A stretch of 64,000 nt of DNA from the NCBI GenBank assembly GCA_938082545.1, contig CALKCL010000016.1:25519-89518 (forward strand), in the 5' to 3' direction. Shown piece after piece: positions 28,634-56,096 of the stretch. The stretch's first letter is position 1. Each line of letters starts with the position of its first letter. The notes under the pieces were generated by a model. That model saw only the letters and a list, made by a program, of their open reading frames with translations, ran no database searches and had not been told where the DNA came from. Both the position numbers and the translations under genes were made by a program. The stretch is from an uncultured Gammaproteobacteria bacterium (GTDB lineage Bacteria > Pseudomonadota > Gammaproteobacteria > Ga0077536).

Positions 28634-28871
28634 GCTCGTTCTCGTGCTCGTGTTTCTGCTTACTGCGTGTTTATAAAATATAAGCTATTGAACGGTAGAC
28701 CTTAGAGAGCTGTGTTGGTAACCACCAATCTTGTCAGATTTCGGATTTTAAAGGTTATAAGCAGTAGTAGCATGTGATCAATACCGGAAGTGTCTAGTGT
28801 AAATATCACATGTGTTATTTTTGATCGAAGGAGGTAAGTACGTTTTCAGGAACGTATTTTGAAAAAACGTA

Positions 28872-29666
28872 ATGAATGTATTTGCTTTTCAGATAAAAAC
28901 CGTTCCAGATCTCGATGCAGGGCGTAAATTTTGGAGTCTAGGTGATTTAGGAGATAAAGAAGCCGGCGCCGTCATGCATAGTAAAAGACGGCAGGAGACT
29001 AACAGTATAAGTAACTCCTTGCGTCAGCACTTTCAAAAAGTAGTATCTATTTCGGCAGTTTATAGAGTGGATGAAAGCATTAAAATCTGGTCGCTGGGAG
29101 AAGGAAATCTCACTGAAATTGATTCTGCTGAAAGCAGATTGCTTCGGGAATTTTATGGATATATAGAGGCCCATGGTCCGGCGCTGATTTCATGGAACGG
29201 TGCGGTATTTGACTTGCCCGTCTTGCATTATAGAGCTCTTGTTAATAAAGTTTCTGCGCCAAAGTATTGGAATAGTGAGAGTAGATACGTAAATATGGAG
29301 GAAAATTGCTGTCAAGAAGATACAACTGCCATGCATACAGATCTTATGAATCAGCTAGGTGGCTCTAAAGACGCACCGTATTCTCCTCTTTCAGAAGTTG
29401 CTAGTTTGCTAGGTTTCCCTAACACACTAGATATGGATAGTAGAAAGATGTTTGAAGTATATCTAACTGGCGGCACAGAAATCATTCGAAAAAAGAATGA
29501 AGTGGACGTACTTAAACTCTGGTTCGTTTACCTTAACTACCAATCTATGGCTGGCCAGATCGACATTAATATTGAGATGGAACGAACTAGGAACTGTCTC
29601 GCCTCCAGTAATCAGCCTCATGCGTCTGAACTATTGGCTCTATGGCCAGCTATGGCCTTATTTTGA
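28872..29666 (+). CDS. Homolog of predicted PolB-like 3'-5' exonuclease with degenerate catalytic motif
   Basis: KRRQETNSISNSL, KIWSLGEG, LISWNGAVFDLPVLHYRAL, LLGFPNTLDMDSRKMFEVYL typical of the family; catalytic DIET motif reads QIKT. Confidence 0.8.
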   Translation: MNVFAFQIKTVPDLDAGRKFWSLGDLGDKEAGAVMHSKRRQETNSISNSLRQHFQKVVSISAVYRVDESIKIWSLGEGNLTEIDSAESRLLREFYGYIEAHGPALISWNGAVFDLPVLHYRALVNKVSAPKYWNSESRYVNMEENCCQEDTTAMHTDLMNQLGGSKDAPYSPLSEVASLLGFPNTLDMDSRKMFEVYLTGGTEIIRKKNEVDVLKLWFVYLNYQSMAGQIDINIEMERTRNCLASSNQPHASELLALWPAMALF

Positions 29667-29694
29667 TTGTCTGTTGTGGGCCCCTTTATTCCCT

Positions 29695-30993
29695 ATGAAA
29701 AACGATGAGCATGATACGCTGACCATCCAAAAATTTGCTCACGATGGGCGTGGCGTGGCTCGATTAAAAGGAAAAACCGTATTTGTGTCTAATGCGCTGC
29801 CCGGAGAAACGGTAGAGGCGGAGATTGTTTACACGCATCGTAGCTTTGATGAAGCAAAAGCCATTAGTGTACTAAGCGGGAAAAGTCATCTTCGCGTTAC
29901 TCCAAAGTGTGAATATTTTGAGAAATGCGGTGGTTGCGATTTGCAGCATATTCAAGACTCTTATCAATTAAAGTATAAGCGAGATGTATTGGCCGAAATA
30001 TTGGCTCGTCAATCAGATTTGACTGCAGAATATGAGTTGGAGGCGGTCACTAGTCTCCCATGGCGATATCGCCGAAATGCTAGAATTGCTGTTTCCACCT
30101 CTCTTGAACACGGACTTACGTTAGGCTTTCGTGAGAAGGGCAGTAGAACTGTTGTCCATTGCTTAAAATGCGACATCCTTGAACCTTCATTATCAGATCT
30201 ATTGCCTCATTTAACTGATCTGATTCAAGGGTTAGACTTTAAAAACTGTATACCTGAAGTAGAGTTACTTTCGACAGAAGACAATGTGACTGTAACCCTA
30301 TTTATTGAACCCAAATTCAATGCTTCAGATCGAATAAAGTTAAGTGATTTTGCCAATGCACATAAAGTTAGTGTCTGTCGTAAATCTGGCAAGACGATTG
30401 AGTCTTTAGGAAGCTCAAACGCAGATCATGGCTACTATATTAATGACCTATATTTTGAGATCTCTCCTGGTAGTTTCTTGCAAACGAACCATGAAATAAA
30501 CACAGCGTTAGTGGCTCATGCTTTAGAGGTCTTGGCGCCATCAAAAAACGAAACTATTGCGGACTTATTTTGTGGTATGGGTAATTTCAGTTTACCTCTA
30601 GCGCAGTTGGCTGGTTCAGTTGTAGGCGTTGAGTCCGACAGAGATCTACTTGCACAAGGGCGCGCGAATGCTGATTTAAATGCGATTCTGAATTGCGAAT
30701 TTTTGCGAGGAGACCTTTTTAAATGTAGCAAATTCTTATTAGCGCGGCTTGCAGATTGCGAAAAAATTCTACTAGATCCTCCACGCGTAGGTGCATTGGA
30801 TTTCGTGACTAATTGTGATTTTGAAAAAATTAATCATATCGTCTATGTTTCTTGCAGCCCCTCTACATTTGCTAGGGATGCTAAAGTATTGTGCGGTAGA
30901 CATAAATTTACACTTATCAGCACACGTGTTTTTGATATGTTTCCTCAGACAGCTCATGTTGAACTTGTTGGTGTGTTTAAAAAAGGGATATAA
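29695..30993 (+). CDS. rlmD: 23S rRNA (uracil(1939)-C(5))-methyltransferase RlmD
   Basis: TRAM domain, FeS cysteines CEYFEKCGGC, IADLFCGMGNFSLPLA, LDPPRVGA, YVSCSPSTFARD; start chosen at ATG 29695 rather than the longer ORF start. Confidence 0.92.
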   Translation: MKNDEHDTLTIQKFAHDGRGVARLKGKTVFVSNALPGETVEAEIVYTHRSFDEAKAISVLSGKSHLRVTPKCEYFEKCGGCDLQHIQDSYQLKYKRDVLAEILARQSDLTAEYELEAVTSLPWRYRRNARIAVSTSLEHGLTLGFREKGSRTVVHCLKCDILEPSLSDLLPHLTDLIQGLDFKNCIPEVELLSTEDNVTVTLFIEPKFNASDRIKLSDFANAHKVSVCRKSGKTIESLGSSNADHGYYINDLYFEISPGSFLQTNHEINTALVAHALEVLAPSKNETIADLFCGMGNFSLPLAQLAGSVVGVESDRDLLAQGRANADLNAILNCEFLRGDLFKCSKFLLARLADCEKILLDPPRVGALDFVTNCDFEKINHIVYVSCSPSTFARDAKVLCGRHKFTLISTRVFDMFPQTAHVELVGVFKKGI

Positions 30994-42618: not shown

Positions 42619-43263
42619 ATGCTCTCTAACAGACTTAATAATACGAGTGACTATGAATTGTTCACAAATAGCTTTTCTACTCACATTAATAAAATTCTTG
42701 GTCTCGACCGCGAGGAGAATATTGAAATATTAGAGCTGAACGGACGGGTAGTCCAAGTTGTTCTGACCCAAATTGACCTTAAGTTTCATATCGTGATTGA
42801 TAATAATCAATTTTCTATCAAACATGGACAAGCTTCAGATCCAGATGTTACTGTTTCTGGTACCGCTTTAAATTATCTAACTTTCTTTGAAAGCAAGTTT
42901 CGTAGACAGCCCTTAGCCGCTGGATCAGTGCAAATTTCGGGAGATCTCGGAGTGGCTAAGCAGTTTGAAAATTTGATTGAAAAAATTGATTTTGATGGGG
43001 AAGAATTATTGTCAAAAATAGTTGGCGATGCCTCGGCGCATGTAGTTTTTTATAATCTAGGGACAATTAGAAATAAGCTTTTAGCTACTGTTGGTAAAGC
43101 TAAATTTGATTTAATAGATTATATACAGTATGAAAAAACACTAGTACCTTCGAGTGGAGATTTCAAAAATTTCGTTGATCAAATGTCTTCATTATCAAAA
43201 AGACTCGAATCAGTTGAACATCAAATGAAGATCATACTGAAAACGGGACGAAGACCCATATGA
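42619..43263 (+). CDS. ubiJ: Ubiquinone biosynthesis accessory factor UbiJ (SCP2 domain)
   Basis: SCP2-like ASDPDVTVSGTALNYLTFF; between ubiE and ubiB. Confidence 0.88.
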   Translation: MLSNRLNNTSDYELFTNSFSTHINKILGLDREENIEILELNGRVVQVVLTQIDLKFHIVIDNNQFSIKHGQASDPDVTVSGTALNYLTFFESKFRRQPLAAGSVQISGDLGVAKQFENLIEKIDFDGEELLSKIVGDASAHVVFYNLGTIRNKLLATVGKAKFDLIDYIQYEKTLVPSSGDFKNFVDQMSSLSKRLESVEHQMKIILKTGRRPI

Positions 43264-52449: not shown

Positions 52450-53820
52450 TTAGTAGTTGTCTTTTAGTTGTTTCGGATCTATGCCTAGACTTCTGAGTTT
52501 TCTATATAGATGAGTTCTTTCAATCCCAATTTGTGCAGATACCCTGCTGACACTCCCATTAAATATCTGCATTTGATGCTCTATATAAGCTTTTTCAAAC
52601 TGTTCCCTGGCCTCGCGCAAGGGCAAGTTGAAGCCCATGTCGAGCTGATTTGTTCTGCTATCGGCTTGGTGGTTGATTATAGGTGTAATCTCTTTTAATT
52701 CTACATGGTTATGGCTTCCTAAAATTAGAATGCGCTGTATGAGATTTCGTAATTCACGGATGTTTCCTGGCCAGGAGTAAAGTTTAAATTTCTGTCTAAT
52801 TTCACTAGAGAACTCCCGCAAAGGTAAATTTTCACTAGACGCAAACTGCTTCAGAAAATAGTCAAGCAGTTCTTCAATGTCTTCGCTTCTTTCTTTTAGA
52901 GATGGAACTTTCAGCGGCAGCACATTCAAATGGTAGAATAAATCCTCCCTAAAGCGGCCTTCCTCTATTAAAGGTTTCAGATCATGTCTAGAACTCGACA
53001 TAAGGCGGACGTCTATTCGAACATTTTTTTGCCCCCCTGGTCTTATGAACTCTTGATTTTCCAGTGCTTTTAAAAGCCTAGCTTGAGTGCCTAAGTCCAT
53101 GTCGGCAATTTCTTTCAGAAAAACAGTGCCGCCATTAGCGAGCTCTAGAGCACCAAACCGCAGCTTTTCTCCTTTTTCAAAGCCAAACAGCTCCTCTTCA
53201 GGGTTGTCCCGCGTCATAGCGGAAACATTGACTTCTACAAAGCGCCCTTGTGAGCGCAGGCTGTTGTGGTGAATAAAACGTGCCAAGGTCTCTTTACCAG
53301 TTCCGGAAGCTCCGCTTATAAAAACGCTCGTCTTATGGTCTGCTATCTTCAGTGCAGCTTTAAGAAGCAAAGACATAATCTCACTTGAGCCAACTGGCGC
53401 CGCTACTTTTCCTGATCTTTTTTCAAAACTCAAATTCTCAGATTTGAGACGATCCACTTCGAGAGCATTTTCTACGGTAAGAATTATTTTTGCTATAGAG
53501 AGTGGCTTTTCTACGAAGTCATAGGCCCCCAGACGGGTAGCTTCTATTGCTGTATCTACCGTTCCGTGACCTGACATCATTACCACTGGTGGCAGAACTC
53601 CTTGGTCTGATGACCATTCTTTGAGAAGGCTGATCCCATCGGTGTCTGGCATCCATATATCTAAAAGGATAAGATCCGGTCTTCTTTGTCTTCTTAGTTT
53701 CCGGGCTTCGGTAGCATTTTCTGCAACCGAAATTTCGTAACCTTCATCCTCCAGTATGTCCTTCAGGAGACTGCGTATATCAGGCTCATCGTCTATAATT
53801 AGTATATAGCTTTTCTTCAT
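52450..53820 (-). CDS. NtrX-like response regulator with degenerate sigma-54 interaction domain
   Basis: REC domain IIDDEPDIRSLLKDILEDEGYEI...LLDIWMPDTDG; AAA+ Walker A GASGTGKETLARFIHH; Fis-type HTH IGIERTHLYRKLRSLGID; GAFTGA absent. Confidence 0.92.
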   Translation of the reverse strand: MKKSYILIIDDEPDIRSLLKDILEDEGYEISVAENATEARKLRRQRRPDLILLDIWMPDTDGISLLKEWSSDQGVLPPVVMMSGHGTVDTAIEATRLGAYDFVEKPLSIAKIILTVENALEVDRLKSENLSFEKRSGKVAAPVGSSEIMSLLLKAALKIADHKTSVFISGASGTGKETLARFIHHNSLRSQGRFVEVNVSAMTRDNPEEELFGFEKGEKLRFGALELANGGTVFLKEIADMDLGTQARLLKALENQEFIRPGGQKNVRIDVRLMSSSRHDLKPLIEEGRFREDLFYHLNVLPLKVPSLKERSEDIEELLDYFLKQFASSENLPLREFSSEIRQKFKLYSWPGNIRELRNLIQRILILGSHNHVELKEITPIINHQADSRTNQLDMGFNLPLREAREQFEKAYIEHQMQIFNGSVSRVSAQIGIERTHLYRKLRSLGIDPKQLKDNY

Positions 53821-56096
53821 GTTCGTATGTCACCTAGCGCCGTCGGTGTGTCTCCCATGATATTCGAACTGGGTATACGAACTAACACTATGGCCCCTCG
53901 CTCCTTTTTGTTTCTCAAAGCCACCATGCCATCATGCTCCTCTAGGATCTTTTTGACAATTGCGAGTCCCAGACCGCTCCCTTTACTTTTACTAGTGACA
54001 TATGGGTCAAACACAGTTCCGAGAAGATTTTCAGGTATCCCTGAACCGTGATCTTCTATTTCTATCTCAATATGCTCGTTGTTGAGGTAGTCTACTAGCC
54101 TGATCGAAATGATGATATTACTTTTTATGTCACGGGATGAAGCGTCTAAAGCATTTTTCACAAGATTATTGAATACTTGTCTGATGCGGACGATATTAAC
54201 TTTGATTTTTGGTAAATTTGAATCAATATTATATATGAAGTTAACTGCCGGATGGGTAGAACGGAAGAGCTCAACCACCCCTTTCAACAGTTTTTCGGTG
54301 TCAGTCAAGCTCTTTTGTTTTGTTGTCGAGCTGGCGTAATCAGTGAACGAGTTCACCATAGTCTTCATCGTTTCTACCTGCTGTATTATGGTGTCAGTTA
54401 AACTTCCTAGCAGTTCACCATCTTCCTTCCCAAGTTTTTTGAGATATTTGAGCCTTAGTCGCTCTGTTGCTAACTGAATTGGTGTCAGTGGGTTCTTGAT
54501 TTCATGTGCTAATCGCCTTGCGACCTCAGACCATGCGGCATCTCGTTGTCCTTGGACGATTGCCGTTACGTCTTCTAGCACTATGACATAGCCGCTAATG
54601 GTCCCTTTGGATGTTTTTATAGTTGTTCCTTTACACACCAGTTCTTTTCGTGAGTCCGCGTTAAGAATAGCGACTTGTGCTTGCCAATACTCTTTTCCTT
54701 CCTCTATCAAATAAAGAATCTGTTCTCTAAATGGTTCTAAGTCGCCATTTTCAGAGCATAGAGTCAAGAAGCTTTCACCTTCGCAATTGGATTCTTGTAT
54801 CCCTAAAAGATTTCTCGCAGAGGAATTTAATGTAGTAATAATCTTTTCCGATGTTAGAGCGATAACGCCTGATGATAGTTGGCTTAGTAAAGTGTCTAGA
54901 TACTCGCGTTGGCTCTCGATCTCTTCCCGCGCCTTGGCGATTCGAGCTGTCATAGAATTAAAAGAACTGACTAAAAACCCTATTTCATCGTTACTTTCTA
55001 CGGGGAGATTTTTAGTATAGTCGCCTCGAGCGATGGCAGCAGTTCCTTCAGCAAGGTCCCTTATAGGAGCCGATAGCCTTCTAGCCGAATAGAAAGCAGC
55101 CCACACTGAGGTGACAATGCTGAAAAGCAGTACTAAGGTTAGGGTCATGGCAAAGCTTAGCTTTAACTTTTCTCGTAGATAAGAGAGCTCCATATATTGT
55201 TCATAGGAGGATTCGACACTGTCGGCGAGGATATTTATCCGGTTAGAAAAAGGATAAAGTGCGTGCAACGTATAGTAATCTTGCACATTTTTCGTGATGT
55301 TGGTTTTGACTGCTACTCTAACAGAGAGGTTTCCGTCTCTTATCGGGTCAAGCCCAATATAGCTTTGCCCCTGGCGGACTTGAGCTCTTATAAGCTCGGG
55401 AGGAAGACTGGGTACTAGGTTGCCAGTTGCACTGCTTGAGGCAATAAGTACGCCTTCTCTGTTCAGTAAAATAAGTTCTTCTGCCCGGTTTTCTGATCGC
55501 ATTGTATCCAATTGGGCGGGAGTCGGGGTCAGGTAAGGCTTAGTTGACAGCGATGAATTTTTGAAAGCTTCCAAGTTCAATGGGATAATCTCAGTTGTAA
55601 TCTCACTAAGTTCGTCTGCCATTTTTTCGGTTTGCAGAAGAAGGTGGCGCATTCTTAAATCTAGAGATTCTCTTCCTAGTTCTAGAGAATCAGAAAGCGC
55701 ATCCGAGACTCTTAAATCAAACCAGCTGTCGACCCCCCGGCGCAAAAAATCTAATGAAAAACCATACAATACAGTGACTGGGACGACGGCTAGTATTGTA
55801 AAAATAATTACCATTCTAAGCGTGAGTCGAGCACCAGCTTCCTTTGTGCGTAGCTGTCGGATTAGTACCCATATATTGCGACCGATGATGATCATAAAAG
55901 CTAGGATTCCGAAAGCATTAGAGATTAAGAGAACAGCATAAAGAGCACCAAACTTAGCAGAGTTTTGTATTGCGCCACTCATAAGGACGAGGGAACAAAG
56001 AAGCGAGGCACTTAACAGGGCTACAGAAAAGAGAGAGAGCACTCTGGTGTTCATAAGGTTAGGTTTGTTCGCAGCCATTGACTTGATATATGCCAA
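53817..56096 (-). CDS. NtrY-like sensor histidine kinase
   Basis: Multi-TM N-terminus, HAMP, H-box WSEVARRLAHEIKNPLTPIQLATERL, N/G boxes NNLVKNALDASS and GSGLGLAIVKKILEEHDG. Confidence 0.94.
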   Translation of the reverse strand: MAYIKSMAANKPNLMNTRVLSLFSVALLSASLLCSLVLMSGAIQNSAKFGALYAVLLISNAFGILAFMIIIGRNIWVLIRQLRTKEAGARLTLRMVIIFTILAVVPVTVLYGFSLDFLRRGVDSWFDLRVSDALSDSLELGRESLDLRMRHLLLQTEKMADELSEITTEIIPLNLEAFKNSSLSTKPYLTPTPAQLDTMRSENRAEELILLNREGVLIASSSATGNLVPSLPPELIRAQVRQGQSYIGLDPIRDGNLSVRVAVKTNITKNVQDYYTLHALYPFSNRINILADSVESSYEQYMELSYLREKLKLSFAMTLTLVLLFSIVTSVWAAFYSARRLSAPIRDLAEGTAAIARGDYTKNLPVESNDEIGFLVSSFNSMTARIAKAREEIESQREYLDTLLSQLSSGVIALTSEKIITTLNSSARNLLGIQESNCEGESFLTLCSENGDLEPFREQILYLIEEGKEYWQAQVAILNADSRKELVCKGTTIKTSKGTISGYVIVLEDVTAIVQGQRDAAWSEVARRLAHEIKNPLTPIQLATERLRLKYLKKLGKEDGELLGSLTDTIIQQVETMKTMVNSFTDYASSTTKQKSLTDTEKLLKGVVELFRSTHPAVNFIYNIDSNLPKIKVNIVRIRQVFNNLVKNALDASSRDIKSNIIISIRLVDYLNNEHIEIEIEDHGSGIPENLLGTVFDPYVTSKSKGSGLGLAIVKKILEEHDGMVALRNKKERGAIVLVRIPSSNIMGDTPTALGDIRT

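Follow-up and report, generated by a model that had tools for sequence, protein, structure and literature searches.

The window considered here (the whole 64,000-nucleotide stretch under analysis) carries two closely spaced genes on its forward strand: a small open reading frame at positions 28872–29666, which begins with ATG and encodes 264 amino acids, and rlmD (29692–30993), the gene for the 23S rRNA uracil-1939 C5 methyltransferase, which starts 25 nt past the stop of the first and has both the Fe-S motif CxxxxxCxxC and the catalytic SCxPxT. The product of the first gene, which we call exo, matches the PF10108 (DNA_pol_B_exo2) profile across residues 50–258 (E = 1e-45; 156.5 bits, against a gathering score of 24), bearing out the strong similarity to PolB-like exonucleases that a first-pass annotation had proposed, and is the sole PF10108 match in the whole 2.03 Mb genome. 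Taken together, profile match, alignment, and structural model lead us to predict that this protein is catalytically dead.

An AlphaFold model of the window protein (pLDDT 84.8, pTM 0.84) finds its best PDB matches, using Foldseek, among family B DNA polymerases (E about 1e-6, TM about 0.5), and the model of an intact relative (pLDDT 93.8) has a similar top match; the RNase H-like/PolB exonuclease fold is thus predicted to be intact. A sequence search for a solved homologue returned only a weak match to Deep Vent (E = 0.076). We also considered a phage origin for exo, and rejected it after an exact-pattern scan of viral contigs gave no match.

No obvious Shine–Dalgarno sequence is seen before rlmD in the window. 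The segment at 28828–28871 contains a strong one (AAGGAGGT) located 36 nt 5′ of the exo ATG, with an in-frame TGA lying between that sequence and the ATG. In the sister species UBA4457, the A-run of the equivalent segment is one A longer, which leaves the frame open. The segment folds somewhat better than its shuffles (z = −2.1).

Active-site residues of the window protein

Five positions expected of a DEDDy exonuclease (D7, E9, D114, Y208, and D212) are each invariant among 53 intact relatives. At motif I, the window protein has Q7-I-K9 in place of D-x-E (CAG ATA AAA, 28890–28898, forward strand), just as the first-pass annotation had read it. Motif II, N-x(2-3)-F/Y-D, is present as N109-G-A-V-F-D114, with the Asp (29211–29213) kept in its NGxxFD context. 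Motif III, Y-x3-D, is represented by K208-N-E-V-D212 (29493–29507) where relatives have YCETD, such that the Tyr is replaced by Lys and Asp212 is retained. With D114 and D212 intact, three of the five positions are changed, the same tally that had been proposed from the sequence at the outset. A further lesion had been overlooked at that stage: the conserved loop FRxNNYxxRxHxR (residues 142–154) is scrambled, as part of a degenerate segment at residues 136–154 (29277–29333) that replaces the conserved G..FRxNNYxxRxHxR loop, and the AlphaFold model is least confident at residues 139–151 (pLDDT < 50).

Two trivial explanations for these substitutions were examined and rejected. First, an alternative start or alignment might restore a DxE motif, a possibility that the earlier annotation had itself raised. 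The annotated start is, however, the orthologous one: relatives open with MNVFVFDIETVPDV and the window protein with MNVFAFQIKTVPDL, without a gap, the N-terminal consensus of the orthologues being MNVFxFDIETVPD, and an in-frame TGA lies close by upstream of the ATG, so that no alternative start restores the motif. Second, the substitutions might reflect an assembly or sequencing error, but UBA4457 has the identical QIK and KNEVD residues, so they do not.

Exonuclease-minus polymerases of families B and A are, by standard practice, made by substituting the Asp and Glu of motif I, and for this reason we infer that the cutting activity of the window protein is gone. In two species, both carboxylates of motif I are missing along with the Tyr of motif III, and the proposal that the protein is catalytically dead is well supported at the level of sequence. 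One might object that the protein could still act as a nuclease, weakly active or using metal in a different way, through D114, D212, and further acidic side chains, given that two of the four carboxylates remain and that E210 and D157 are also present. We regard this as most improbable, as it is precisely the motif I pair that is substituted to abolish exonuclease activity, and other dead lineages (described below) also lack D114 or D212.

Selection on exo since the split from UBA4457

The sister species, Proteobacteria bacterium UBA4457, provides a direct view of how exo has evolved after losing its active-site residues. For about 50 kb, its contig runs collinear with the window, and its exo protein is 97% identical to that of the window; the shared QIK and KNEVD place the loss of the active site before the split of the two species. 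Between them, exo has accumulated 14 synonymous and 9 nonsynonymous differences (23 substitutions in all, and hence limited power). Using the NG86 method, we obtained a dN/dS of 0.166 (bootstrap 95% interval 0.06–0.41), ranking 29th of 47 window genes with a median of 0.13, and a pairwise maximum likelihood codon model of the GY94 type gave an omega of 0.225, with omega = 1 rejected (2dlnL = 11.7, p = 6e-4). None of the 9 amino acid changes falls at any of 78 family-conserved positions (p about 0.04). Low omega and untouched conserved positions together argue for selection on the exo protein after inactivation, within the limited power of 23 substitutions.

The comparison also bears on the two readings offered by the first-pass annotation, a pseudoenzyme or an early pseudogene. 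Signs of a pseudogene (stops, gaps, or an omega near 1) are absent from the window copy, for which the two estimates of omega against UBA4457, 0.17 and 0.23, are significantly below 1 and ordinary for the neighborhood; fresh decay is therefore unlikely. The sister genome, where an intact DIET and a dN/dS near 1 would have pointed to decay, instead has QIK and a constrained gene. The constrained half of the original proposal thus gains support, both here and from other families, in which orthologues inactivated on separate occasions have long been retained, none with stops or frameshifts, and the early-pseudogene half loses it.

The same species comparison turned up two side observations. The gene at 42619–43263 has an omega of 0.72 and one in-frame stop in UBA4457, and is possibly decaying; aligning a 759-aa open reading frame at 53817–56096 with UBA4457 reveals two in-frame stops, which may result from an incorrectly assigned start or frame.

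Among five other genomes of the genus searched, an exo or rlmD match was found in UBA4457 only, and the four remaining congeners show a match to neither. In one of these (G003), the locus is collinear with the window (ilvC-pssA-rimI-pagL … SBP-LDT-permeases) except that exo and rlmD are both absent, and only about 145 bp separates the flanking pagL and SBP open reading frames (L186:3669–3814). Absence from the other three congeners was scored by protein searches, with two assemblies 73% and 87% complete. The module is therefore dispensable within the genus.

Recurrent loss of the active site beside rlmD

Considering all homologous loci with enough downstream sequence, exo lies directly upstream of rlmD, on the same strand and within 500 nt, in 120 of 147, which suggests that the pair forms a functional module. 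A survey across the class, taken to be Gammaproteobacteria, combined with four family searches yielded further catalytically degenerate orthologues, and every dead locus found adjoins rlmD, with the RlmD motifs intact where sequence reaches; adjacency is not clearly commoner at dead than at intact loci. The dead copies differ in their lesions and in their distribution. In G019, motif I reads FDIQ, the motif II Asp is replaced by Ala, and the motif III Tyr by Arg; in G162, motif I reads TFA, and the sister genus G313 is intact. Family f58 contains dead copies in seven species of two genera, G238 and G322 are dead and G323 of the same family is intact, and family f141 contains dead copies in three genera (G287, G324, and G329). 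The f141 copies are only about 26% identical to each other, so their alignment and exact residue states are uncertain. In f1, likewise, many genomes carry an intact exo in the same family as dead copies. All of the dead copies are free of stops and frameshifts. As a separate observation, one genome (G015, L041) has, besides an intact exo, a second, divergent PF10108-like copy that is interrupted by a TAG.

How often the active site was lost depends on which tree is used to trace descent. In the exo protein tree, most dead copies cluster, implying 2 changes, with long-branch joins that the tree builder flagged as untrustworthy. The rlmD tree shows 7 changes to the dead state, including one at a duplicated locus (G312), and 6 origins remain when the topology is rebuilt without it. 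As rlmD is the better tracer of descent, we conclude that exo has been inactivated independently about six times. We considered and rejected the possibility that the dead copies all go back to a single ancient lineage and were dispersed by transfer, as the rlmD tree seats the dead loci in their own families.

Taking one representative for each of the six dead lineages, we find the catalytic residue retained in 7 of 30 cells; for the remaining positions that do not vary among intact relatives, the figure is 114 of 186 (Fisher p = 1e-4). All or nearly all of the six lineages have lost E9, Y208, and the NNY loop, and every one of the six still has P12, D13, L26, E87, W108, R121, L173, P183, L221, G228, and L243. 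Omega for the dead pairs tested is 0.125–0.39, in every case significantly below 1, versus 0.02–0.08 for intact pairs. On a shared topology, the ratio of exo to rlmD branch lengths is mostly 2–35 for dead copies, compared with a median of 0.9 for intact ones; the accelerated copies are those of f58, f78, f128, f141, and G019, and the window clade is the mildest, its ratio of 1.43 falling inside the intact range. Given the longer exo branches and an omega several times that of intact copies, constraint on dead exo is clearly relaxed, but not absent.

These data allow us to weigh two further accounts of the dead copies. According to the first, the main rival, exo is dispensable, its active site has drifted, and the open reading frame is slowly on its way to loss, with residual constraint acting only against misfolding. 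The acceleration of most dead lineages relative to rlmD and their elevated omega would fit such slow decay, as would the congeners without the exo-rlmD pair and the absence of exo from part of f1 and from many genomes of the class. We nevertheless consider it rather unlikely, given that omega in each dead pair has stayed well under 1 since inactivation, that 0 stops or frameshifts have appeared, that dead copies have been retained across the two f58 genera and the three f141 genera, and that catalytic positions are preferentially lost while other invariant residues stay. According to the second, exo is kept mainly as a leader whose translation is coupled to that of rlmD or adjusts it, with its amino acid sequence of little weight. 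The 25-nt gap and the missing Shine–Dalgarno sequence before rlmD in the window would suit this arrangement; purifying selection at the protein level, and exo-rlmD gaps that vary and reach roughly 110–250 nt in several dead f58 loci, make it very unlikely.

A candidate noncatalytic role

We consider it probable, if by no means certain, that the window protein is a constrained pseudoenzyme within the exo-rlmD module that keeps a noncatalytic role, perhaps binding of rRNA or of RlmD. The ancestor was an exonuclease-like protein of the DEDDy type, its gene fixed in the position immediately 5′ of rlmD. Both of its motif I metal ligands, its motif III Tyr, and its NNY loop were replaced before the split of the window species from UBA4457, with purifying selection on the protein since then, and about five other gammaproteobacterial lineages went through the same transition independently, each time next to rlmD. 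The product would be a protein of the PolB-exonuclease fold that has lost nucleic acid hydrolysis and is kept as a protein, presumably for a second, noncatalytic role that outlived cutting; most likely it would bind rRNA or RlmD itself and, as ribosomes assemble, help to present the m5U1939 region of 23S rRNA or to protect it.

The window protein resembles the predicted 3′–5′ exonucleases of PF10108/COG3298 in sequence family, length, predicted fold, and rlmD neighborhood, but differs from them in the change of DIE to QIK, the replacement of the motif III Tyr by Lys, and the loss of the NNY loop. A superfamily classification groups PF10108/COG3298 beside the PolB exonuclease domain (PMC3985635). 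With the 3′–5′ exonuclease domain of family B DNA polymerases (PF03104; Deep Vent, Pfu, Tgo), it shares the predicted fold and the order of motifs, but it stands alone, without a polymerase domain and without the motif I carboxylates. Loss of a nuclease site with retention of the fold has precedents among inactivated domains of polymerases: the inactive nuclease (PHP) domain of E. coli Pol III is retained in a structural role (PMC3666897), and PolA2 and PolB2 keep inactive DnaQ-like domains (PMC12926913). In contrast to these domains inside polymerases, the window protein is small and stands on its own, its gene neighboring that of an rRNA methyltransferase.

Our literature search, which had most subscription papers outside its reach, found nothing on PF10108 function, its rlmD linkage, or dead versions, and a search for RlmD, exonuclease, and operon returned nothing on the exo-rlmD pair by title or abstract; the name DNA_pol_B_exo2 also turns up in a Bordetella omics paper. 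For a family so far known only as a "predicted exonuclease," the dead lineages amount to about six natural active-site knockouts beside an rRNA methyltransferase gene. By setting apart the residues that catalysis requires from those that persist in its absence, they point to a testable noncatalytic role and to RlmD or 23S rRNA as a likely partner. A tentative extension, which we regard as possible but on the doubtful side, is that PF10108 as a whole is an RlmD-dedicated rRNA-assembly factor. If its main job were noncatalytic, the exonuclease center would be discardable, and would have been discarded repeatedly: a recurrent pseudoenzyme transition within an uncharacterized, strongly conserved exo-rlmD module. 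The RlmD of the window species pair (29692–30993 in the window) itself sits on a very long branch within its family, at about 2.1 substitutions per column, indicating that the whole locus or lineage evolves fast.
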